DNA from: a virus
Virus record (IMG/VR): IMGVR_UViG_3300027788_001042
Span: 1-30,571 of that record
DNA: 30,571 bases
Strand: one strand, 5' to 3'
The notes beneath the pieces were generated by a model. That model was not told where the DNA came from. It did not search any database and was given only the letters and a program-made list of their open reading frames with translations. Below are positions 9,508 to 23,894 of the stretch, piece after piece. A program made the translations under genes and the position numbers. Within the stretch, counting starts at the first letter, position 1. Every line of letters begins with the position of its first letter.

Positions 9508-11221
9508 TAGCGGAGTATCAACTCCACAATTCTTTATTGGCGTTGTAGAAAACAATGTTGATAAAACAATGGAAGGCAGAGTTCAAGTAAGAGCTTTTGG
9601 TTTGCATGGTACACACGAAGATATCGAGACGCAAGATTTGCCTTGGGCAATTTGTGCGGCAGGTAATTACGACCCAAACAATTTCATTCCTCCACTTAAT
9701 TCTTTTGTTTATGGTTTATTCATTGATGGAAGATTAGCACAGCATCCAATGGTTCTTGGTTTAATCCCAGGAACATATAACAAAGAAGCAGATCCTGCTG
9801 TGGATGGCTTTGGCGTTATCGCAGAAAAAGACGGTGATTTATTAGGAAGAGGATATGGACCTAGAGACTTTAACTCCGGGGGTGGTCCTGATAAGTTAGC
9901 TCGTGGTGAAAATCTATTAGAAACATATCTATTAAGTATGGCAGCTAATAGAGTCCACGATCAAAAGATTGCTGAATCAGACGAAACGTGGGCAGAGCCA
10001 CCACCAGCTTACGCTGCAAAGTATCCATATAATAAAGTTTTAAAAACAGCAAATCATAGTATTGAATTAGATGATTCTCCTGGTGCTGAACGTATTATGA
10101 TTCATCACAGAGCAGGTTCTTATATTCAAATAGACTCTATGGGTACTGTATCTGAAAGAGCACAAGGAGACCGTTATGAAATTAACATCGGAACGAAACA
10201 TGAATCGTCAGGTCATAGTGCTATTACGATTAACGGTAATGCTCATGTCTATGTTAAAGGTAATAAGACAGAAGAAATAGAAGGCGATTATAAAATGCTT
10301 GTTCATGGCAATGCCGAGTTTGGTGTTGGTGGACAATTAAATCTAAACGGTGGTACACAAACTCAAATTCGTGGTGGTGACGTTAAGATCGAAGCAAACG
10401 TCGGTATTATGACACTGATGGGTAAAAAGGAAATACAGTTTGAAGCAACGAATCAATTAAACTTTGTTTCTCAAAATATAAAGAACACTGCGCTATTAAG
10501 TTATGATGTATATTCTAATAAGAGTATTAAATTTACTTCTATAATGGATATACATAATGTTGCTTCTAACATTGTTAACTTTGCGAGTGGTTTACTTCCA
10601 CCATCACCTTTAAGTGGTAGTGCAGGATTACCTATAAGTGCTGGGTGGAGTTTAACTACTCCTGCTGTACATATTGCTGCGATAACAGGATCCTTTAGTG
10701 GAATATGGAATGCAGGTGTTATAAATGGTGGAGTAGGTACGTTCACTGGACTTAATGCAACAGGTGCTGCACTAACTACTTTGAATGCTACCACTATTAA
10801 TGCCTCAGCAGTGAATACAACTATACTTGCTGCTCCTCTACCTTCAGGAGCTGTTACTGCAAATGCTACTCGTCTTATTGCATTACCTACAGCGCCAACA
10901 ATTGCTATACCTACTCTTCCTGCTATTACGATACCTGCTACAAGTATACCACTTGCGTTACCTGTCCCTGGTGCTAGTTCAGGTTGGGCTTATCCTACAG
11001 GTAATAGTCCAGTGTTCTTTGCTAAAGTATTAACAAGTCCATTCTCATTGATTACAAACTTTCCTCCATTAGGAAGAGGTGCATGGGGTATGACCGAAGT
11101 TAAAATGCCTGAACCACCAAGTTATTCAATGTCTTGTTTAGCTCCTGGGTATTTCTCTCAGGGTTGGGCAGGCGGTTATTTGTCTCCGACTGATGATTCT
11201 GCTAAAGGAGAAATATTCTAA
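9497..11221 (+). CDS. 5: Baseplate central spike gp5, without lysozyme domain
   Basis: Trimeric needle below the hub that pierces the outer membrane. Residues 1-110 form the OB-fold: FFIGVVENNVDKTMEGRVQV, RAFGLHG, DLPWAICA, then PMVLGLIPGTYN, as in gp5 and VgrG spikes. A linker follows, then a repetitive beta-prism/helix part (about 190-330; YIQIDSMGTV, AITINGNAHVYVKG and QLNLNGGTQTQIRGG turns). T4 gp5 carries a lysozyme of about 165 residues between these parts; here there are only about 70 linker residues and no lysozyme motif. The final 200 residues are unusual, rich in Ala, Thr, Ile and Pro with TIPATSIPLALPVPG-like segments. ATG 9497 has a GGATAAAGG ribosome site; an ATG at 9479 in frame lacks one. 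Stop overlaps the next start (TAATG). Confidence 0.85.
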   Translation: MLGNSGVSTPQFFIGVVENNVDKTMEGRVQVRAFGLHGTHEDIETQDLPWAICAAGNYDPNNFIPPLNSFVYGLFIDGRLAQHPMVLGLIPGTYNKEADPAVDGFGVIAEKDGDLLGRGYGPRDFNSGGGPDKLARGENLLETYLLSMAANRVHDQKIAESDETWAEPPPAYAAKYPYNKVLKTANHSIELDDSPGAERIMIHHRAGSYIQIDSMGTVSERAQGDRYEINIGTKHESSGHSAITINGNAHVYVKGNKTEEIEGDYKMLVHGNAEFGVGGQLNLNGGTQTQIRGGDVKIEANVGIMTLMGKKEIQFEATNQLNFVSQNIKNTALLSYDVYSNKSIKFTSIMDIHNVASNIVNFASGLLPPSPLSGSAGLPISAGWSLTTPAVHIAAITGSFSGIWNAGVINGGVGTFTGLNATGAALTTLNATTINASAVNTTILAAPLPSGAVTANATRLIALPTAPTIAIPTLPAITIPATSIPLALPVPGASSGWAYPTGNSPVFFAKVLTSPFSLITNFPPLGRGAWGMTEVKMPEPPSYSMSCLAPGYFSQGWAGGYLSPTDDSAKGEIF

Positions 11222-12765
11222 TGGAAGTATGTATTGATAGAGATGATCAAACAACTTTAAATAAGTTAGCTCTCACAAAACTAAATGTCGTTGATTCTGA
11301 AGGTAGATTTAATCTTTCTCAAATAGACGCAATTACAGAAGATCTTGCTAAGAACATTATTCTTGAAGCTGAAACAAATCCTCTTATAGTAGCAAAGAAC
11401 AAATACGGTGATGGAATATATACTGCCACTGATTATTTAAATGGATTACTTAGACAACAAATCGGTAGTCTTACACAGTTCCCTGATTTAGATGCAAGAT
11501 GGAATAAAGGTAATATCTCTAGTCTTGAAACTGCTGATTTCCTTAAGGCATATAATTATACTCCTTCTGGTTTTACAGAGGAAAGCGATTCTCAAAAGTT
11601 AGCACGAAATCTAGATTCGTATTATAAAAACGATTTCAGTTCAAGTATACTTGGTGGATTCTGTGATAGGTTTGAATCTGTCTTTGCTTCAATAGACGCG
11701 TTCTTCGATCTAATTGGAGTAGTTGAAGGTCTCATAGCTGATGTATTAGATTTTGTTGAAAAAGTAAGAACATACGATGGCTTGAAAGATCTAACGGCTA
11801 AAGGTGTAATTGAAAAACTTATTAAACAAATAAAGAAAAAGATTGAAGATGTAATAGATAAGATCTTTACAGAAGTTCAGGATATGGTTGCTAACTTTGA
11901 TCCATCTAAGATTACTGAAGGTTTTGAAACTTATGTAGATAAATCTGTTGTGAAAGGGATAATGACAACACGCGAACAAATGTGCGCATTGTTTACGGAC
12001 GAAAATAAGAAAGGCATTAAAGATAAAGTATTAGGTTTAATTGATTACGCAGTTAGTTTATTTGAGAGTCCTGGGATTGAAGAAATTCAATTCATTATCG
12101 CAAGAGTATGTGCAATGGCTGCAAACATCGAAGCTTTAATACGAGACATCAATTCACCGCTTGATAACTACGCAAATAGATATGGTCAAATCGTAAATAG
12201 ACTTAAGAATATATCAAATGTTAATAGCGGTGGCGCAATTGCAGCTGGAGCGATACGTTTCTCTCCAACAACTAGGCAATCTGTAATAAATAGATTAGAA
12301 GGCAGATGGACTAAGCCTGATGGGAAGTCTATTACAAATACAGGTAAGGCTCCTACTAATATTGTTCCTATTACTGCTAAGGATTATAAAGATCTTCCAA
12401 GATGTGGTAATGTATTTAAAGGAACTGATACAGTCTTTGGTGTTGAAGGAGATAGCTTCGATGAAAAGGATGGCATTGGAATTTACGCCTATACTCGCGT
12501 TGATCTTGATGTTAAGGTCTATCTAAAGAGAGTACAGAAGCTGACGGGAAGCAAGCTTATAATTGTTGACGGCTGGGTAAGTAAAGCCTATAACAAGAAG
12601 ATAAAGGGTGACGAACAAAACAGTCACTTAAGTGGTCTTGTTGTTGATATTAAAAAGGATATGGCCGATCCTGCCAAGTTTATAGAGGACGCGTATTTAA
12701 ACGGGTTCAAATATGTTAAAGAATACGATACACACATTCATTTAGATATAAGAGAAATAATTTAA
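11221..12765 (+). CDS. Baseplate hub protein with C-terminal M15-type peptidase domain
   Basis: Probable virion-borne cell-wall hydrolase. The 514 residues split in two. The N-terminal 340 are mostly helical with coiled-coil stretches (for example DLTAKGVIEKLIKQIKKKIE, about 189-208) and look structural. The C-terminal 120 carry Zn-peptidase marks of the M15 (VanY/M15_3) fold: NSHLSGLVVDI, with His469 and Asp476 in the S-x-H-x-x-G-x-x-x-D pattern, and HIHLDIR, with His507 in the H-x-D-x-R pattern. These would be the zinc ligands of an L,D- or D,D-type peptidoglycan peptidase. The usual Arg of the Y-R-S segment is not seen (VDGWVS). The gene follows gp5, which lacks its lysozyme, and starts on the gp5 stop (TAATG). 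The activity is predicted, not shown. Confidence 0.78.
   Translation: MEVCIDRDDQTTLNKLALTKLNVVDSEGRFNLSQIDAITEDLAKNIILEAETNPLIVAKNKYGDGIYTATDYLNGLLRQQIGSLTQFPDLDARWNKGNISSLETADFLKAYNYTPSGFTEESDSQKLARNLDSYYKNDFSSSILGGFCDRFESVFASIDAFFDLIGVVEGLIADVLDFVEKVRTYDGLKDLTAKGVIEKLIKQIKKKIEDVIDKIFTEVQDMVANFDPSKITEGFETYVDKSVVKGIMTTREQMCALFTDENKKGIKDKVLGLIDYAVSLFESPGIEEIQFIIARVCAMAANIEALIRDINSPLDNYANRYGQIVNRLKNISNVNSGGAIAAGAIRFSPTTRQSVINRLEGRWTKPDGKSITNTGKAPTNIVPITAKDYKDLPRCGNVFKGTDTVFGVEGDSFDEKDGIGIYAYTRVDLDVKVYLKRVQKLTGSKLIIVDGWVSKAYNKKIKGDEQNSHLSGLVVDIKKDMADPAKFIEDAYLNGFKYVKEYDTHIHLDIREII
12403..12762 (+). other. M15-type peptidase domain (part of the 11221-12765 gene)
   Basis: Codons about 395-514 of the gene. 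Predicted zinc ligands are His469, Asp476 and His507. The spacing and the flanking G473 and R511 agree with Pfam Peptidase_M15_3. The catalytic acid cannot be assigned with certainty; Asp503 and Glu501 are candidates. Confidence 0.7.
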
Positions 12766-15067: not shown

Positions 15068-17746
15068 ATGCCGCAAGGTAATATAGAAAAGAATCTATCG
15101 CTTTTTATTAAGCAACAATTTCCGGCGATATATCGTGAGAACGGACCTGAACTCGTTCAATTAACTGAAGACTATTATAAGTTCTGTGAAACTCAAACGA
15201 AGCAGTCTATATATCATCAGCGAAGAATATTTGAGCATAAAGATATTGATAGTACTCTTGAGAGTATGATTATATTCTTTAAAAAGAAATACCTTGATAA
15301 TCTTCCTCTTAAAGCTAACATAGTTAAATTTGTAGTTAAAAACATTCTTGATCTTTATCGTTCAAAAGGTACTAAGCGCGGTATAGAATTATTCTTTGCT
15401 ATATTCTACGAAGAGTTTGATATTGAAATACTTTACCCAGCTGAAAGAATGGCTAAGGTTTCTGATAGTGAATGGAGACAAGGTGTATACCTTCAAATGT
15501 TTCCAAACGATGGAGTGTTCTTATCTAAGACTGGCGTAGAGTATACTTACTTTGATATACTATCTCGTAATATTACTGGGTCTGTTTCAGATGCAAAAGC
15601 TGCTGTAAGATCAGTTAACTTCTTTATTCTAAATAACATTAGAACTCCTGTTATATATCTTGATGATATTAAAGGAAACTTTACTAAGTATGACGATGCA
15701 TACACAATCATTAATGGTGAGTTAGTTAACTTCGGTAAAATTAATGGTTCTCTTTCAAACTTTGAAGTTGATACAAATGACGCAGCTGTAACTGGAATTG
15801 AGATCGGCGCTGTTTATAATGTTAAACAAAAAGACGGCAACGCAGGTAAAGCAATTGTTACAGAAATTTCAGACGAGATTACTGGTAAGGTAGAATATGA
15901 TTTAGAAGATGGCGGTTATGGCTATCAGTTAAACAACACAAGGTTATTGGTTTCTAATCAGTCTATCATTACAAATAATGGTATAGGTGGTTATAACGAA
16001 GGATTTATTCAGTATGAAGTAGTACAAGATCAACTTGGTAACTCTGGTGTTGTTATTGGTCAGAACGAAAGCTCTATCGGTATTAAGATGGATAGCAATG
16101 ATGCGTTTACATTCGCAAGTGTTGTGACAACGGTTAGGCCAGCTATTGATGGTGTAGCTCAAACTCAATTAACAATTACTATTGCTTCAAACGGTAACGA
16201 AGTAACTACAAGAAACGATACTTCTCCCGGTCCGTTATATCCAGATACATCTGATATTTCTCATGTTAAAGTTAGTGCTTTAGTAAATACTTCGGTTGCG
16301 TCTGTTATTACAGATCCTATAGCACCACATCTAGGAACAGCACTTAATGCTGGTGATTATGAAAGTATAGCAGCAATGTCAGGTACTGCTTCTCCAGTTA
16401 ATTTAACAACGCCACTTAATACTGCGTTTGCTATTCAAGATCTTACTATTGGTGAAATTGCTGGGTTTGAGAATATCAACCCTGGTGCTGGTTATAGAAA
16501 CGATGTGTTTGTTGCTATTCAAGATAATATATTTAAGAACTTTGAGCGAAGGAATCAGGTTATACGATTCACTGATGCTGGTGATGCTGGAAGTTTCTCA
16601 ATAGGCGATAGTATTACAGAAGTAAGCGCAGCGGCAACCAAAGGTCGTATTGTAGCCATTAATTCAAACAGTGGATCCATTACAGTAATTCCATTTAGTT
16701 ATAATGGATTTAACGGAAGTGATATAAAGCTTACAAACTCTGTAGGAGCTAATAGATCAGTATCTGGTGTTGGATACGATTATTCTGTTGGGGCTAGAGT
16801 AATGGGTGATAACGCTATCATGGATGCTGAAACTAAATTTGCATTCGGTAGAACTAAATCGGTTAGTATACTATCATCAGGATTCGGTTATGTTGATTAT
16901 GGAAAGCCAGTAGCTGACGATGATAATATTGCATTCTCACTTGGTAAGGGTTGGTTAACTGACGACAGCGATAATGTAATTGCTAAAGGTTGGATATCTA
17001 ATGATAAACAAGGTGTTACTGAAGGTTACTGGGCTGGAGAGAATAGCCACCTAAGTGGATATATTCAAAAGAGTGTTACTTCATCTGAAACAATATTACC
17101 TAATTCAAACTTTGCGCTTGCGGTAACGGCAGTTGCTGTAGGTACTGATCCTATTGCGTCTGTGGGAGACTTAGCACCGGAATTTAGAAACTGGTTAAGC
17201 AGTATAGCATCGGATGGTTATACTTACGGTGATATTAATATGGACGGCTCAATTACTTCAGCCGATGCATTAGAATTTGCTAAGCTTCCAGCAGGTGCGG
17301 CTACAGCAGCATCTGTAGCAAGATGGAACAATATCATTGCTCCTAATATGAAAGGTAGAAGTTGGTATAAACTACAAGAAAATATAATCTGGGTAACAGA
17401 TGTAGAGACTAACGTATACGATCAAGAATACTATGACTCAGGAGTAAGAGTACAAGATAGTGATTACTTCCAAGAGTATTCATACCAAATTAAATCTTCT
17501 ATGCCACTTCAGGAATACGAAGAATTATTAAAACAAAATGTTCACTTAGCAGGTAGTAAACTGTTTGGTGACTTTATATTCAAAGCCGAAGTTGCTTCGA
17601 CAATCCAACCTAGATTCTTAAGACTGTTCAATGATGATGGTTATGGGTCTGCGTTCGACATTGCTAATACAAGTTTACTTGAAGCATCGGTTACAAACTT
17701 TACTGTTGATAGCACGTTTGTTAGTGCTGACCACGAACCAGTATAA
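15068..17746 (+). CDS. Baseplate wedge protein, gp7-like, with dockerin-type loop
   Basis: Outer wedge protein. The first 140 residues match the C-terminal part of T4 gp7: LVQLTEDYYKFCE (about 29-41) and then DLYRSKGTKRGIELFFAIFY followed by EEFDIEILYP, like the FCEAYIQYLSDGY...STKGIEASYKFLFKVLYNEEVEIEIES portion of gp7. T4 gp7's N-terminal 600 residues have no counterpart. The remainder (about 180-890) is beta-rich with repeated glycine turns. Residues 722-733 (DINMDGSITSAD) form a perfect dockerin/EF-hand-type calcium loop. The C-terminus returns to a helical QEYSYQIKSSMPLQEYEELL (about 807-826) segment. Length is 892 against 1032 in T4. It lies directly after gp6, as gp7 does in T4. Marine phages often have this gene under other names. 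Confidence 0.75.
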   Translation: MPQGNIEKNLSLFIKQQFPAIYRENGPELVQLTEDYYKFCETQTKQSIYHQRRIFEHKDIDSTLESMIIFFKKKYLDNLPLKANIVKFVVKNILDLYRSKGTKRGIELFFAIFYEEFDIEILYPAERMAKVSDSEWRQGVYLQMFPNDGVFLSKTGVEYTYFDILSRNITGSVSDAKAAVRSVNFFILNNIRTPVIYLDDIKGNFTKYDDAYTIINGELVNFGKINGSLSNFEVDTNDAAVTGIEIGAVYNVKQKDGNAGKAIVTEISDEITGKVEYDLEDGGYGYQLNNTRLLVSNQSIITNNGIGGYNEGFIQYEVVQDQLGNSGVVIGQNESSIGIKMDSNDAFTFASVVTTVRPAIDGVAQTQLTITIASNGNEVTTRNDTSPGPLYPDTSDISHVKVSALVNTSVASVITDPIAPHLGTALNAGDYESIAAMSGTASPVNLTTPLNTAFAIQDLTIGEIAGFENINPGAGYRNDVFVAIQDNIFKNFERRNQVIRFTDAGDAGSFSIGDSITEVSAAATKGRIVAINSNSGSITVIPFSYNGFNGSDIKLTNSVGANRSVSGVGYDYSVGARVMGDNAIMDAETKFAFGRTKSVSILSSGFGYVDYGKPVADDDNIAFSLGKGWLTDDSDNVIAKGWISNDKQGVTEGYWAGENSHLSGYIQKSVTSSETILPNSNFALAVTAVAVGTDPIASVGDLAPEFRNWLSSIASDGYTYGDINMDGSITSADALEFAKLPAGAATAASVARWNNIIAPNMKGRSWYKLQENIIWVTDVETNVYDQEYYDSGVRVQDSDYFQEYSYQIKSSMPLQEYEELLKQNVHLAGSKLFGDFIFKAEVASTIQPRFLRLFNDDGYGSAFDIANTSLLEASVTNFTVDSTFVSADHEPV
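17231..17266 (+). other. Dockerin/EF-hand-type calcium loop in the gp7-like protein
   Basis: Codons 722-733 read D-I-N-M-D-G-S-I-T-S-A-D, with acidic or Asn ligands at loop positions 1, 3, 5 and 12, Gly at 6 and a hydrophobic residue at 8, as in type I dockerin repeats. A helix-like ALEFAKL follows. Only one clear loop is visible; cellulosomal dockerins have two. Confidence 0.65.
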
Positions 17747-17784: not shown

Positions 17785-19659
17785 ATGACAAAACAAGTAG
17801 TTAATTTAGGTGCAAGCGCAAACGATGGGACAGGTGATCCAATACGAATTGCGTTCGATAGAGTAAACGACAACTTTAATGAAGTTTACAACGCATTGGG
17901 TAATTCACAGAATCCAATAGATTTGTTTGATAACGCAGGCGCGCTTGATCTGAATGGCAAACCACACAAAGTATCTTTCTTATATGCTACTAAAGCATTA
18001 GTCGATGCAGTGTCGCCTTCAACTTATCATGGTGCTATGGCGCATGCACACGATACTGGCGCTGTGTATTATGCACATGGTTCATGGAGAGGATTGCTTT
18101 CTGATAACTCTGCTGGTGATATTACAAACTACGTTGACCCGTTAAATCTAATATCATATAAATCCAATGTTACTAACGAAGATAATTCTGCAAATACTGC
18201 AAACCTTGTTCTTAAGACAGTTGGTGATGGTACTTATACATGGGCACTTCCATCAGCAGATGCAATAACTCTTAATACTCCTACTGATGTTACTATTAGT
18301 AATCCAGCGTTAAATCAAGTATTAACTTACAATGGTTCCGCATGGGTTAACTTAGCAGCACAAGGTGGCGGCGGTGGCGGTGGAGATTATGATAATGCAG
18401 CCGTAGATACTCATTTAAATACTGGGTCAGCTAGTAATAATCAAGTATTAGGTTGGACAGGATCTGATTACGATTGGATTACTGCCGCAAGTGGTTCAAC
18501 AACTTTACTTGCATTAACTGATGTTGGTTCTGATGGAACTAACGGGCAAGTACTTACTACAGATGGCAGCGGTAACTTTTCGTTTACAACAATAGGTGGT
18601 GGTGCTGGTGGGGATTATGCTGATTCTGATGTTAGTGCTCATCTAAATACAAGTGCAGCTTCTGCAGATCAAATTTTAAGTTGGACAGGTTCTGACTTTG
18701 CTTGGGTTGCAGATCAAACAGGTGGCAGTTCATACACTAACTCAAATGTTGATACTCATCTAAATTCTAGTACTGCATCATCAAGCGAAGTATTAAGTTG
18801 GGATGGTTCTGATTATGCCTGGGTTGCTCAATCAGGAGGTGGTGCTTCTACACTTAGTGCTTTAACTGAAGTTGCTCTCGCTGATCTTGATGTCCACGAT
18901 ATAGCATATCCTGCGTCTGCAGTTCATGTTATGACACCTAATGGTTCGTCTGCTTATAGATCAGATTATCATGGAACTACAGATAACCCAACATTGTATG
19001 TAAATGCTGGTGAAACGATTGCGTTTGATTTAACAGATGTAACAGCTTCACATCCTTTCCAAATTCAAACAACTGGAGACGTAGCATATAACACTGGTCT
19101 AATTCATGTTGCACCTGACGGAACAAAGACAAGTGGTAGTGCTGCAAATGGTAAAACAAGTGGTGTTCTTTATTGGAAAGTCCCAGGTTCAATAAGTGGT
19201 GACTATGAATATATTTGTACTGTACATGCAGGTATGAAAGGAACTATTACAATTAAAGATCCTTCTGCATCTGCAGGTGGGGCAGCAAGAGTTACTGAAA
19301 CTGAAACAACAGCTTCTATCGGTGCAGGAACTACAGGCAATGTTTCTTTTGCCACACTAGGTAAGTCATTCGCAATACAAAAAGTAACTGCTGAAAAAGA
19401 ATCATGGATACGAATATATTCTGACACTGCTTCAAGAACGGCTGATGCAAGTAGAACTCAAGGAACAGATCCTGCTGATGGCTCTGGTGTTATTGCTGAG
19501 TTTATTGCCACTTCAGCTAACACGGTATTTAAAGTTACTCCTTCTATTTACGGTTGGCTTGACGATGGCGAAGCAACGGTTCCAGTAGCAATACAAAATA
19601 ACACGGCAGGTACAACCACAACATCGGTTACTATTCAAGCATTAAAGATAGAGTCTTAA
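17785..19659 (+). CDS. Fibre-like virion protein with three repeats and a cupredoxin domain
   Basis: Probably a tail-exposed structural protein. The N-terminus VNLGASANDGTGDPIRIAFD, then RVNDNFNEVYNAL (6-38), is a widespread phage tail-fibre attachment segment. Gly-rich residues 194-200 lead into three related repeats (about 201-236, 277-312, 317-350), each with a D-x-H-L-N...LSW-G-S-D-x-x-W core. Residues about 365-495 form a cupredoxin (plastocyanin/amicyanin-like) domain with all four type 1 copper ligands in place: His423 (ASHPFQI), Cys478, His481 and Met484 (ICTVHAGM). The C-terminal 125 residues form a Ser/Thr-rich beta region. It is not present in T4 and lies between the gp7-like and gp8 genes. 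A ribosome site (AGGAAAAGG) precedes the start. Copper binding is predicted; the biological use is unknown. Confidence 0.75.
   Translation: MTKQVVNLGASANDGTGDPIRIAFDRVNDNFNEVYNALGNSQNPIDLFDNAGALDLNGKPHKVSFLYATKALVDAVSPSTYHGAMAHAHDTGAVYYAHGSWRGLLSDNSAGDITNYVDPLNLISYKSNVTNEDNSANTANLVLKTVGDGTYTWALPSADAITLNTPTDVTISNPALNQVLTYNGSAWVNLAAQGGGGGGGDYDNAAVDTHLNTGSASNNQVLGWTGSDYDWITAASGSTTLLALTDVGSDGTNGQVLTTDGSGNFSFTTIGGGAGGDYADSDVSAHLNTSAASADQILSWTGSDFAWVADQTGGSSYTNSNVDTHLNSSTASSSEVLSWDGSDYAWVAQSGGGASTLSALTEVALADLDVHDIAYPASAVHVMTPNGSSAYRSDYHGTTDNPTLYVNAGETIAFDLTDVTASHPFQIQTTGDVAYNTGLIHVAPDGTKTSGSAANGKTSGVLYWKVPGSISGDYEYICTVHAGMKGTITIKDPSASAGGAARVTETETTASIGAGTTGNVSFATLGKSFAIQKVTAEKESWIRIYSDTASRTADASRTQGTDPADGSGVIAEFIATSANTVFKVTPSIYGWLDDGEATVPVAIQNNTAGTTTTSVTIQALKIES
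18385..18837 (+). repeat. Three coding repeats in the fibre-like protein
   Basis: The repeats start near 18385, 18613 and 18733. They encode YDNAAVDTHLNTGSASNNQV, YADSDVSAHLNTSAASADQI and YTNSNVDTHLNSSTASSSEV, each followed by L-x-W-x-G-S-D-x-x-W. Repeats 1 and 2 are separated by an unrelated Thr/Gly-rich spacer; 2 and 3 are almost adjacent. Such units usually form trimeric fibre shafts. Confidence 0.75.
18877..19269 (+). other. Cupredoxin domain 1 (in the 17785-19659 gene)
   Basis: Codons about 365-495. Predicted type 1 copper ligands are His423, Cys478, His481 and Met484. The C-x2-H-x2-M spacing is that of amicyanin-like proteins. The preceding strand NPTLYVNAGETIAFDLTD (about 401-418) matches the family pattern ahead of the first His. 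Confidence 0.75.
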
Positions 19660-19662
19660 TAT

Positions 19663-21864
19663 ATGAGTAAGAAACTTTATAACCTAGTTCTTCAGCCTGG
19701 GACTGACGAAGCTGCCTTTCTTAGTAATGAAGCAGCGGGTATGGATGTACACGATAATCTTAACTTATTCGATATGCTTCTATGTATGATGCTTACTGAA
19801 GAAGAAGCTGCTACGTTAAAAGCTAGTGAAAAAGTTTTTGAAATAGAAGCTGAAAGACAAGTTATAGAAACTTCTTATCCAACAACCACCCCCAGATATG
19901 AATCTACTGGTGCTACTTTTAGAACAAGAACATATCCGCCAACGTCTGGTAATGGTAAAAATTATACTGGAATGAATATGTTTTTCACCAGTGAATTTGA
20001 TCCTGCATCAGGGTTTGCTGGGTCTTCGGCTGGTTACTTTGGTGATTTCAATTTTGACGATTCAGTTAAATCTAATTTCCTTGGAGAGTATGTTGATATA
20101 GTCGCAATTGAAGCAGGTACTCCAACCTCAGCGTATGATGGACATGAAAATCACGTTGACTTTCAAGAATTTGATTCTACGAATTCTAAGTTTGTTAAAA
20201 TGGATTGGTCTACTTATAACGGATCTGCCTCTGCTGTTGAAAACAACCAAGTAACGAATCCAAGTGGTCCTTTTTGGACTGCACATGCTGCTGGTGTATT
20301 AAGCGCGGCTGGTGGTAAATATTGCGGTTGGGGTAAAAAATCAACGTTAAGAGTAATATATTTAAGTAACGGAACTAACACCGCCTATTATTCTGTTCTG
20401 CAATGGCATATCTCCAAGGCAGTTAATCCTGCGACTGGTGTTAGGAATGCTACTGTCGTAACAGGAGCTTGGGGTTATACAGGTCTTGAACACGAAGAGT
20501 TTTTTATAATAGATGATATTGCCTCTATGACCGTACAAGGTGGTAGTGTAGTAACTAATAGACCAACAGGAACAGGTTCTGCACAAGCGTTAAGCTTTAC
20601 GGCTGCAGCTTCTGATTCATCTAATTATCAAGTAAGTGGAACTGATAGGAATGGTTCTGTTTCTGGTAATGACCCAACAATTAATATGGTTGTTGGTGAT
20701 ACTATTAATATGACAAACAATGCTAGCGGCGGCCATCCAATGTATTTTAAAACGGCTGCTACGACAGGTACAGGAAATCAAGTTTCTGGTGCTACAGGAC
20801 AAGGCTCTGGAAGTATGAGTTGGACTCCAAGTGCAGCAGGAACATATTATTACATTTGCCAATATCATAGTGGCATGGTTGGAACATTAACTGTCACTGC
20901 AGCTACGCCAGCAGGTTGGGGTACAGACTTAACACCATTTACAAGTAATGGTATTATTCCTAGAGTAATTAACGATCCTGCTGATAACACAGATAAGTGG
21001 ATGTTATCTATTCCTTACCAATCAAGATTCTCTTCCTTTGATACTGTTATGGGTACCTTTAATAATTATAATGGAATATATTGCTTTAAGAGTGCAGGTA
21101 ACAATTCTCACATTGCTGTTAATCCTCTAGATACGGAATGGAATAACTATGTTACACCTGATGGCGGATATAGAGTACTTAATACTTTAGATAGCGAAGG
21201 TAAAAATCAATTTACTTCGTCAAGTCAATCAGATAGTAATCAATATGTTTTAAGAACTGCAATTGACGGTGGTCCTGATCAGTTTACAATCGCTGCTTGC
21301 CAACAAGATGATACAAATAGATTATTAGATGATTATAGTAATCGAGGGAAGATGATTGACTTTGCTTCTTACGGTGCATATACTTGGACAAGCAACCCGT
21401 CGTTTACATATTCAGATGGTAAATGGGGATACTTTAGTGGAACAAGTTGTGCTGCACCAGTTGCCGCAGGTTGTGCCGCTGTATTCTTAGATCATTGGTT
21501 TACACAAAGAGGTGTATATCCATCTCTTGCTCAATTAAAATCATTAATGATTAAAAACGCAAAGGCTAATCTAATCGGTGAAGATCTAATTGACTTTACG
21601 AATATACCAACCGCTGCCGATATATCATCAACTAAATTATATAGCTCAACCGAAGTAAACAGAGTTAAAGACGATGATTATCAAAACGGTGGTGCAGATC
21701 TATCAGAATTATATGGAACACCAGCATTAAGAGTTCATATTCCTTGGGGAATTAGAATGGGATCTGGTAAATACATCGCAGGTGGTTCTGAACAAACTAC
21801 CGAAGGAAGACGTCCTCTATCGGGTCGAGCGTGGCCAAGAAGCAAGACATCGTTTTCTTCTTGA
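19663..21864 (+). CDS. Subtilisin-family (S8) protein with an inserted cupredoxin domain
   Basis: Predicted virion serine protease or protease-derived structural protein, 733 residues. Residues 1-70 resemble an I9-type propeptide (MLTEEEAATLKASEKVFEIE). S8 landmarks follow: His208 in FWTAHAAGVLSA, oxyanion Asn480 in FKSAGN, and Ser595 in FSGTSCAAPVAAG. The catalytic Asp motif is not normal: VDIVAIEAGT has Glu150 where the D-T-G Asp is expected. Residues about 305-414 form a second cupredoxin domain, inserted between the His helix region and SAGN, with His358 (GGHPMYF), Cys399, His402 and Met405 (ICQYHSGM). The C-terminus is Arg/Ser-rich. The start lies 3 nt after the previous stop with a weak ribosome site, so the two genes are probably translated together. 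Activity is uncertain. Confidence 0.8.
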   Translation: MSKKLYNLVLQPGTDEAAFLSNEAAGMDVHDNLNLFDMLLCMMLTEEEAATLKASEKVFEIEAERQVIETSYPTTTPRYESTGATFRTRTYPPTSGNGKNYTGMNMFFTSEFDPASGFAGSSAGYFGDFNFDDSVKSNFLGEYVDIVAIEAGTPTSAYDGHENHVDFQEFDSTNSKFVKMDWSTYNGSASAVENNQVTNPSGPFWTAHAAGVLSAAGGKYCGWGKKSTLRVIYLSNGTNTAYYSVLQWHISKAVNPATGVRNATVVTGAWGYTGLEHEEFFIIDDIASMTVQGGSVVTNRPTGTGSAQALSFTAAASDSSNYQVSGTDRNGSVSGNDPTINMVVGDTINMTNNASGGHPMYFKTAATTGTGNQVSGATGQGSGSMSWTPSAAGTYYYICQYHSGMVGTLTVTAATPAGWGTDLTPFTSNGIIPRVINDPADNTDKWMLSIPYQSRFSSFDTVMGTFNNYNGIYCFKSAGNNSHIAVNPLDTEWNNYVTPDGGYRVLNTLDSEGKNQFTSSSQSDSNQYVLRTAIDGGPDQFTIAACQQDDTNRLLDDYSNRGKMIDFASYGAYTWTSNPSFTYSDGKWGYFSGTSCAAPVAAGCAAVFLDHWFTQRGVYPSLAQLKSLMIKNAKANLIGEDLIDFTNIPTAADISSTKLYSSTEVNRVKDDDYQNGGADLSELYGTPALRVHIPWGIRMGSGKYIAGGSEQTTEGRRPLSGRAWPRSKTSFSS
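20575..20907 (+). other. Cupredoxin domain 2, inserted in the subtilisin-family protein
   Basis: Codons about 305-415. Predicted copper ligands are His358, Cys399, His402 and Met405, with the same C-x2-H-x2-M spacing as domain 1. The final strands YYYICQYHSGMVGTLTV and YEYICTVHAGMKGTITI are clearly alike, so the two domains are homologous; a direct duplication is possible. Confidence 0.75.
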
Positions 21865-21911: not shown

Positions 21912-23894
21912 ATGGAAATTTTAACAAATAATTTTAATAGCGACATCAATAAGATGTTCGTTACAGACACAGTAGCTAATCAAGATTACTATATGTTTGT
22001 GTCTAAGATCGGGTCGTTTACCCCAGTAGACTCTGCTGTCTCTCAAAATGAATTCCTAGAGAATACATTATTTGGTAAAAAGATACACAACGATGATATA
22101 AACTATATGATTAAATACTATCCTTGGCAAAGAGGAACAGTATATATTCAGTACGATGATACTATTGATCTTGACGGTCTAAAGTTTTATTCTGTAGTTG
22201 GTCCTAACGATAATGATACTGGTGATTACCGAGTATTTAAATGTTTAGCGAATGGAAATGGTTCATCTGCTGAATCACCTCCTACATGGGACGCGGCTAA
22301 CGTAACTCAAATTTATGAAACTGCTGACGGTTACGTATGGAAATATATGTATCGTCTAACTACTCTACAATTTGAAGGATATAACGCTTTAGGTTATATT
22401 CCAATCGACCCATCTGCTAATGCTAATCCTGCTGAAGTGCAAGGTGGCGGAGTTTCTGAAGTTGTAGTTAATAACCCGCTTGATAATCAGGGTTATGAGG
22501 AAAAGATTGCTGTCCTAGATGTTATTATTGGAAGATCAGGACAAACACAAGGTGACAATAGGCTAATACTTGATCCTACTACATTGGATTGGGCTGAAGG
22601 CGCAAGTTATTATGTTGGTCAGTACTGTTATATAACGAATCCAAGTTCAAGTGTAACTAATCTATTTAAAGTATTAAGTTATACATTTAATACAACTTCA
22701 GGTAATGCTGAGATTAGAGTTGGCTCAGAGCTTACAAATCCTTCAAGAGGAAATATTACAGGTATCACTGCTGCAAACCCAGTCGTGGTTACTTCAGTTG
22801 GTCACGGTCTTGTTGACGGACAGCCTATACGGTTTGGTGATGTTGGCGGAATGACTGAACTAAATTATGTTACAGGCAATCCTTATTATGTTAAGACGGT
22901 AGATCTTGATTCGTTTGAAGTTTATACAACAGGTGTTATGAATCAGGATGGCGTAACATGGGCTACCTCTAATAATAGTAATGGATTAAATGGTTCTGCA
23001 TTTACTGCTTGGACGGCAGGCGGAACGTATAACGCAGATAAAGATTTACTCGTTGCTGGTGTATTAACAAATGCAACAGTAAAAATATTTCCAAGACTCG
23101 ATATTATTGGTGATGGTGTTGGAGCTATCGCAATTCCTAATGTAATTGGCGGACGTATTAAATCAGCTACGATATTAAATAGAGGTTCAGGTTATAACAA
23201 CTCTATCGCTACTGTAGTTAAGCCATCACAAGGATTTTTAGATGTAGTAGATATCACAGCAACATTGAGAGTAATACTTGAACCTTCTGGTGGACATGCA
23301 TATAATTTATTAGAAGAATTCAGATGTAAACATTTTTCATTCTATGCTTATATTACAGCTTCTGATAATACTCACTTAGGTGGAGTTAATACTTATGGTT
23401 CTATTGGTATTGTAAGATCTCCTTCCTTTAGAGATGGTCCACTTGCTTCAACTCCTGGTCCTAACTGGAGAAGTACTTCAGCGTTAGGTTTAAAACCAGA
23501 AGTATTTGATAATAGAATCGCAATTGTAACTAATGACCATGTTAGCTTAACTGCAAATAGCACTATCACACAAATTGACGTAGATAACAATGTAACATTT
23601 AAAGCTCAAGTACACGAAATTGATGCAACATCCAACACCGTATACCTCGCAGAGTATATGGGCCCGTACCCAAACAGAAAAGTTGTGGGTAATGGCGATA
23701 CTTCTTTTAATCCTGATTCTGATATTACTTCAGACTCGGGTCAGAAGATCGCAATAAATAATCCAGTAGCTAGTAATGTTACATACTCAGATTATATACA
23801 ACGAACGGGTGAAGTATACTTCATGGAAGACTTTTTCCCATTAGCACGAACTGAACTTTCTCGAGAAGAATTCAAGTTCGTATTAGAATTTTAA
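21912..23894 (+). CDS. 8: Baseplate wedge protein gp8, with a large insertion
   Basis: Wedge component joined to gp6, gp7 and gp10 in T4. The N-terminal part reads DYYMFVSKIGSF, then YYPWQRGTVYIQYDD and DTGDYRVFKCLAN, matching the gp8 beginning (FITFGRS, R-D-W, GWLVYRCLD in T4). DGYVWKYMYRLTT (about 138-150) is equivalent to T4 GDGYVWEYLFEIPP. The ending RTGEVYFMEDFFPLARTELS then REEFKFVLEF corresponds to T4 HSGEMIYMENRPPIIMAMDQ then EEINILFTF. At 660 residues it is about twice T4 gp8 (334). The extra middle part includes a GHGL-type beta unit (about 282-341: VVTSVGHGLVDGQPIRFG). The gene follows the cupredoxin pair, not gp7 directly as in T4. Identity is firm on the two ends. Confidence 0.85.
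   Translation: MEILTNNFNSDINKMFVTDTVANQDYYMFVSKIGSFTPVDSAVSQNEFLENTLFGKKIHNDDINYMIKYYPWQRGTVYIQYDDTIDLDGLKFYSVVGPNDNDTGDYRVFKCLANGNGSSAESPPTWDAANVTQIYETADGYVWKYMYRLTTLQFEGYNALGYIPIDPSANANPAEVQGGGVSEVVVNNPLDNQGYEEKIAVLDVIIGRSGQTQGDNRLILDPTTLDWAEGASYYVGQYCYITNPSSSVTNLFKVLSYTFNTTSGNAEIRVGSELTNPSRGNITGITAANPVVVTSVGHGLVDGQPIRFGDVGGMTELNYVTGNPYYVKTVDLDSFEVYTTGVMNQDGVTWATSNNSNGLNGSAFTAWTAGGTYNADKDLLVAGVLTNATVKIFPRLDIIGDGVGAIAIPNVIGGRIKSATILNRGSGYNNSIATVVKPSQGFLDVVDITATLRVILEPSGGHAYNLLEEFRCKHFSFYAYITASDNTHLGGVNTYGSIGIVRSPSFRDGPLASTPGPNWRSTSALGLKPEVFDNRIAIVTNDHVSLTANSTITQIDVDNNVTFKAQVHEIDATSNTVYLAEYMGPYPNRKVVGNGDTSFNPDSDITSDSGQKIAINNPVASNVTYSDYIQRTGEVYFMEDFFPLARTELSREEFKFVLEF
22756..22935 (+). other. 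GHGL-type beta domain inserted in gp8
   Basis: Codons about 282-341 show VVTSVGHGLVDGQPIRFG, then GMTELNYVTGNPYYVKTVD and SFEVYTT. This pattern (V-T-x-x-G-H-G-L...G...G-M-x-x-L-N...Y-x-V...F-x-L) recurs in phage tail proteins and is often annotated as a ubiquitin-activating-enzyme E1 FCCH-like domain. It is absent from T4 gp8 and is probably a structural decoration. Confidence 0.5.

Follow-up and report, generated by a model that had tools for sequence, protein, structure and literature searches.

A cupredoxin domain inserted in a subtilisin-fold baseplate protein of a T4-like phage, and its exchange among neighbouring baseplate genes

What is a cupredoxin, the fold of small copper proteins, doing inside a subtilisin-like protein that a phage encodes among its baseplate genes? 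The question is raised by ORF 19663-21864 of a viral sequence of 30,571 nt (IMG/VR record IMGVR_UViG_3300027788_001042, positions 1 to 30,571), hereafter called the window. A first-pass annotation of this DNA reported the S8 landmarks His208, Asn480 and Ser595 and the copper ligands His358, Cys399, His402 and Met405, and all of these residue numbers are right; it listed no Asp. It described the product as a subtilisin-family protease carrying a copper domain without precedent, and proposed several roles for that domain, regulation of the protease among them. Coordinates of the features discussed below are collected in the table.

The 733-aa product of this ORF adopts, in an AlphaFold2 model, the fold of a complete pro-subtilisin. 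Peptidase_S8 (PF00082) scores above its cut-off over the half of the protein that runs from Asn to Ser (21031-21570; 33.5 bits, E 1.8e-10 in a six-frame search), and likewise in the insert-free relative L019 (35.2 bits). The mean pLDDT of the model is 74.5, with most of the S8 core at ~75-94 and most of residues 1-60 of the pro-domain at 82-92. Structural alignments with the pro-subtilisins 3afg, 3wiu, 4jp8 and 3whi begin at residue 1-3, and the alignment with 3afg extends over 333 residues from model position 1 to 718, pro-domain included (Z 23.6, rmsd 3.3). Since the match to pro-subtilisins spans the whole length of the model, the insert leaves the subtilisin fold intact, which answers a question that the first-pass annotation had posed.

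Relatives were collected by scanning IMG/VR, which gave ~100 loci (some of them one contig fetched twice); 57 aligned long or full-length S8 sequences form the basis of the residue counts given here. Glu150, His208 and Asn480 are unvarying in all 57 sequences, and Ser595 is present in every row that reaches its position. The protein shares with pro-subtilisins a pro-domain, the subtilisin fold (structural Z 22-24) and the His, Asn and Ser landmarks, but differs from them in carrying Glu150, at the end of a modelled strand of residues 144-150, in place of the catalytic Asp, in having Cys after the Ser, in its 114-residue cupredoxin insert, and in being encoded among baseplate genes. Glu also occupies this position in relatives of cyanophage S-CAM1. 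Judged from these residues, a canonical S8 triad is not supported, and with Glu150 in place of the catalytic Asp we therefore regard the protein as a subtilisin-fold homologue and not as a proven S8 peptidase. Of the earlier designation as a subtilisin-family protease, the fold is supported and the protease status is not. Many subtilases have Met, not Cys, after the nucleophile Ser; Cys596 (21448-21450) is invariant beside this residue in the window and S-CAM1 families.

The inserted domain (aa ~302-418) is a cupredoxin by several measures. The plastocyanin/azurin family PF00127 matches residues 333-411 above its curated cut-off (23.8 versus 21.2 bits, E 6e-5), this part of the model has a pLDDT of ~90, and rusticyanin and plastocyanin are among the Foldseek matches of the 733-aa model. 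The ligand columns align with the ligands of amicyanin and plastocyanin. As the first-pass annotation had it, a complete type 1 ligand set has been inserted between the His and Asn segments of the S8 protein, at a discrete site. More precisely, the insertion point is the loop that follows the strand equivalent to the substrate-binding strand of subtilisin and precedes the oxyanion Asn.

The same annotation named free variation of the ligands among relatives as an observation that would speak against a copper site; instead, all four are unvarying in 39 of 39 full-length carriers, even though two of these domains can be as little as 26% identical. A second kind of cupredoxin, carried by the gp10-like protein encoded immediately upstream, is ~30% identical to the S8-borne kind, and the ligands are invariant in both. 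When the two kinds are aligned jointly, all four ligands fall within the 8 invariant columns of 117 (chance ~1e-5). Because the ligands are invariant, we infer that the domain would bind copper. It resembles plastocyanin/azurin cupredoxins in fold and in its His...Cys-x2-His-x2-Met ligands, and amicyanin in the ligand loop, but is not a free electron carrier, being built into virion proteins or joined to them.

Table. Features of the window and of related loci; positions are those of the window unless a locus is named.
Feature	Position	Strand	Evidence
Baseplate wedge protein; counterpart in L132-L135 has a C-terminal cupredoxin	15068..17746	+	homology
Upstream gp10-like protein (T4_gp9_10_N), with its own cupredoxin	17785..19659	+	domain match, HMM
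Cupredoxin of upstream gp10-like protein (HPFQ...CTVHAGM)	18901..19269	+	HMM E 5.6e-40
Subtilisin-fold baseplate/tail protein with inserted cupredoxin, 733 aa	19663..21864	+	phrog_15006 tail fiber E 1e-54, PF00082, AlphaFold2
N-terminal pro-domain (I9-like), aa 1-67	19663..19863	+	AlphaFold2 pLDDT, structural alignment
Glu150, at catalytic Asp position, end of strand 144-150	20110..20112	+	E in 57/57 relatives
His208, catalytic His position	20284..20286	+	57/57 relatives
In-frame insert, 349 nt	20565..20913	+	7 nt in L019 (= L020)
Cupredoxin (putative type 1 copper) domain, aa 305-416	20575..20910	+	PF00127, HMM, AlphaFold2, Foldseek
Predicted copper ligand His358	20734..20736	+	39/39 carriers
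Predicted copper ligands Cys399, His402, Met405 (C-x2-H-x2-M, amicyanin-length loop)	20857..20877	+	39/39 carriers
Asn480, oxyanion-hole Asn (SAGNN)	21100..21102	+	57/57 relatives
Ser595 at the nucleophile position, followed by Cys596 (GTSCAAP)	21445..21450	+	Ser in 56/56 rows reaching position
Downstream baseplate wedge subunit	21912..23894	+	phrog_438 E 5e-45
Third carrier gene, counterpart of window 15068-17746	L132 741-3701, L134 2-571, L135 738-3698

Genes for a gp6-like protein, a wedge protein, the gp10-like protein, the S8 protein and another wedge protein follow one another in the window as a T4-like baseplate cluster. Within the same region, 11221-12765 encodes a baseplate-region protein with an M15 peptidase domain at its C-terminus (PF08291), and genes for an HSP20 chaperone (724-1170) and a dUTPase (139-633) adjoin the tail cluster. 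A cyanobacterial host for the window phage was considered and not adopted, as the gp6-like protein is nearest to that of Sinorhizobium phage phiM12 (40%) and a 156-kb relative (L043) is without psbA.

Comparison among relatives revealed that the cupredoxin comes and goes as a unit. It is present in 39 of the 57 aligned sequences, in each case in the loop that separates the NRP and GWG motifs, and missing in 18. In L019, the DNA is ~98% identical to that of the window on both flanks of the insertion site, and 7 nt stand there in frame in place of 349 nt. L019 is a natural empty site that is without exactly the cupredoxin module. The module is thus exchangeable: genomes that are otherwise near-identical differ in having it, and its carrier gene varies. 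At another place in the S8 protein, three relatives (L022 4001-6802, L049 862-4029 and L094 407-3235) have an extra insert of ~300 aa before the Glu150 segment, for which no Pfam or PHROG match was found.

The cupredoxin of the upstream gp10-like gene is likewise present or absent between conserved flanks among relatives, and the two genes appear to cover for one another. Among 58 loci in which both genes could be read, 33 carry the domain in the S8 protein only, 16 in the upstream protein only and nine in both; no readable locus in the clade of the window lacks it in both genes. L094 and L126 were left out of this count because their sequences are too short, and L069 was entered as having both, its upstream cupredoxin having been missed by one HMM and found by BLAST. 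The search that yielded the loci used S8 motifs lying outside the cupredoxin, but from the second scan only the best-scoring 80 were kept, which biases the set towards carriers. A Fisher test on this table gives 2.6e-8, a naive value that ignores kinship.

Kinship was taken into account with a tree, obtained by a quick search, that was built from the S8 part with the insert excluded. On this tree, the S8 cupredoxin changes state at least five times and its upstream counterpart at least seven times. When the two traits were simulated as independent, 3743 draws had similar margins, and in only 21 of these (0.56%) was there no locus lacking both domains, where 8.1 such loci are expected. A dependent trait model was favoured over an independent one with a likelihood ratio of 13.1 (4 df); an independent-pairs test could draw on only a few pairs. 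Phylogeny-aware support for complementation between the genes is only moderately strong (p ~0.006). On a deeper branch, L132, L134 and L135 have no cupredoxin in either gene, and a third baseplate gene carries one at its C-terminus.

The first-pass annotation had regarded the fusion as unprecedented, a view that does not survive comparison with public cyanophage records, which hold similar fusions in S-BM3, S-H9-1, S-CAM1, S-CAM4 and P-HM1. S-BM3, with a canonical Asp/His/Asn/Ser S8 domain, and AG-345-F15 (L004) have the cupredoxin at the loop corresponding to that of the window. In S-H9-1 and S-CAM4 it lies C-terminal to the S8 domain. P-HM1 (L006 1967-7465) has two cupredoxins in one S8 protein, before and after the protease domain. 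The catalytic Asp is kept in S8 proteins of the S-BM3, P-HM1 and S-CAM4 types. These T4-like marine phages thus resemble the window in joining S8 and cupredoxin on one polypeptide, but differ from it in that their cupredoxin is mostly C-terminal, before the S8 domain, or permuted in another loop. The public annotations of these proteins are "subtilisin-like serine protease" in S-H9-1, "peptidase S8" in S-BM3, "putative proximal tail fiber protein" in S-CAM1, and hypothetical in S-CAM4 and P-HM1.

S-CAM1 (L001 5086-7338) was at first taken for a plain S8 protein without a cupredoxin, and this was rejected because a permuted copy is present in another loop. In this protein and its IMG/VR relatives the segment with Cys, His and Met comes first and the His segment follows. 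From this order of segments, the cupredoxins of S-CAM1 and its relatives are read as circularly permuted, a form unlike that of plastocyanin and azurin, and as nested in two S8 loops. One of these lies between the Glu and His segments; the other, occupied by a second permuted copy in L116-L119 and L121-L124, is exactly the loop used in the window. A model of L118 has beta-rich domains at both sites (pLDDT roughly 70-90). Foldseek with the permuted model returned subtilases alone among the best 50 matches listed, which says nothing against permuted domains.

Cupredoxins close in type to that of the upstream gene were found in 292 phage records, almost all from cyanophages, and most often in gp9, annotated as "baseplate wedge tail fiber connector" (phrog_677). 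This protein has the same kind of cupredoxin and resembles the product of the upstream gene of the window, but is without an S8 part. Cyanophages also encode a cupredoxin in petE (plastocyanin, an auxiliary metabolic gene), but its product is a free soluble electron carrier with no virion protein attached. Sullivan et al. (2010; PMC3037559), in the part of that paper drawn on here, mention only the S8 peptidase of P-HM1/P-HM2 and a separate petE. No account of phage virion proteins with a cupredoxin, or of copper in a tail, baseplate or virion, was found in the literature searched, which lay mostly outside subscription journals and preprints. Each fold is known, and their fusion can be read in public cyanophage genomes; the surprise lies in the movement of the cupredoxin from one gene to another and in its permuted copies nested in S8 loops.

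These distributions bear on function. Strict constraint on the ligands indicates that the metal site matters, and the exchangeability of the carrier protein indicates that what matters is the module on the baseplate, not the module on the protease. Because the cupredoxin swaps positions among baseplate genes, its job would belong to the whole virion and would require display on the baseplate periphery, with the S8 protein as one carrier. The simplest reading is a copper-loaded docking module at this periphery, proposed because the module is displayed and interchangeable, and we hold it to be evenly poised between right and wrong. Plastocyanin and amicyanin dock through the face around their His and Met ligands. 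By analogy, the copper-loaded domain would be stable and exposed, and as the phage adsorbs, the corresponding face would contact a partner on the surface of the host. The S8 part would probably mature by cutting off its own pro-domain, and may cut an envelope protein even with Glu in place of Asp. Other roles at the level of the virion, such as metal-supported stability or copper capture, would fit the evidence as well.

A different possibility is that the cupredoxin, situated beside the substrate cleft, gates access to it or alters the redox state of Cys596, so that copper or redox conditions switch the protease on at the host surface. This idea stays alive because the domain has been placed repeatedly in S8 loops and because Cys596 is invariant next to the catalytic Ser. 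Three divergent S8 hosts (the window family, AG-345-F15 and S-BM3 with its canonical Asp) have the insert at the corresponding loop, where relatives of S-CAM1 have a permuted one, and P-HM1, S-CAM4 and S-H9-1 also join the two domains in one ORF. In S-CAM4 and S-H9-1, however, the cupredoxin is merely appended after the S8 domain, and Cys596 is just as invariant in insert-free S8 proteins. In addition, 16 loci have a cupredoxin in the upstream protein and none in the S8 protein. The finding of the domain in the S8, gp10-like or third baseplate gene therefore favours a virion function, such as copper-dependent docking or adhesion, over a protease-specific switch, and the regulatory role offered by the first-pass annotation now seems unlikely to us.

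The module might instead be a structural decoration, a beta-sandwich whose metal does nothing but stabilize the fold. Ig-like domains are common on virions, and the modular insertion, permutation and reuse of the cupredoxin in many large virion proteins are in keeping with such a role. We nevertheless consider it improbable: the complete set of type 1 ligands is strictly kept in widely diverged domains, and the genes compensate for one another, which is more than neutral decoration needs.

A third proposal would have virion-bound copper engage a copper-uptake receptor of the host as a Trojan horse, by analogy with the hypothesis formulated for phage tails around the iron in HxH sites of T4 gp37 (PMC11705849). 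The invariant ligands and the baseplate gene context are compatible with this scheme. There is no known receptor, and a type 1 site, which is buried and holds copper tightly, is a poor fit to donation; we regard this explanation as unlikely. An assembly chimera or gene-calling artefact, for which no support was found, can be dismissed since the fusions are uninterrupted ORFs in dozens of separate metagenome contigs and in several cultured phages.

That related viruses retain one or more such domains within a set of three adjacent tail genes suggests a purpose for copper in the virus particle itself. A hypothesis on host entry and ocean metal cycling has grown from iron sites in tail fibres, and the present domain offers a comparable case for copper, with a textbook-like type 1 centre that, when lost from one gene, is found in another. 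As cultured cyanophages carry such domains, copper per virion is measurable now. The near-identical pair with and without the module, along with the permuted forms, amounts to a natural experiment on domain insertion into the subtilisin fold.

A bolder generalization is that the baseplate of one class of marine T4-like phages requires one or more type 1 copper sites, supplied by a module that moves between three adjacent genes and that is permuted and nested in two S8 loops in cyanophage relatives, and that the virion is a copper-dependent or redox-sensing machine at the host surface. We regard this as tentative and probably too strong. The notion that all marine T4-like phages possess a cupredoxin was rejected, since profile A4 detected none in S-PM2, S-WAM2, S-RSM4 or HTVC008M; the domain is therefore dispensable in these phages or has diverged. 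A related S8 protein, with Asp, is present in S-WAM2 and S-RSM4. The same profile found no cupredoxin in the non-marine controls phiM12, Cr30 and T4. Cupredoxin matches were also obtained in Melnitz-1 (L162, MZ577095.1 108836-109180) and Mosig (L163, MT647606.1 83341-83682), phages of Methylophilales and Pelagibacter.
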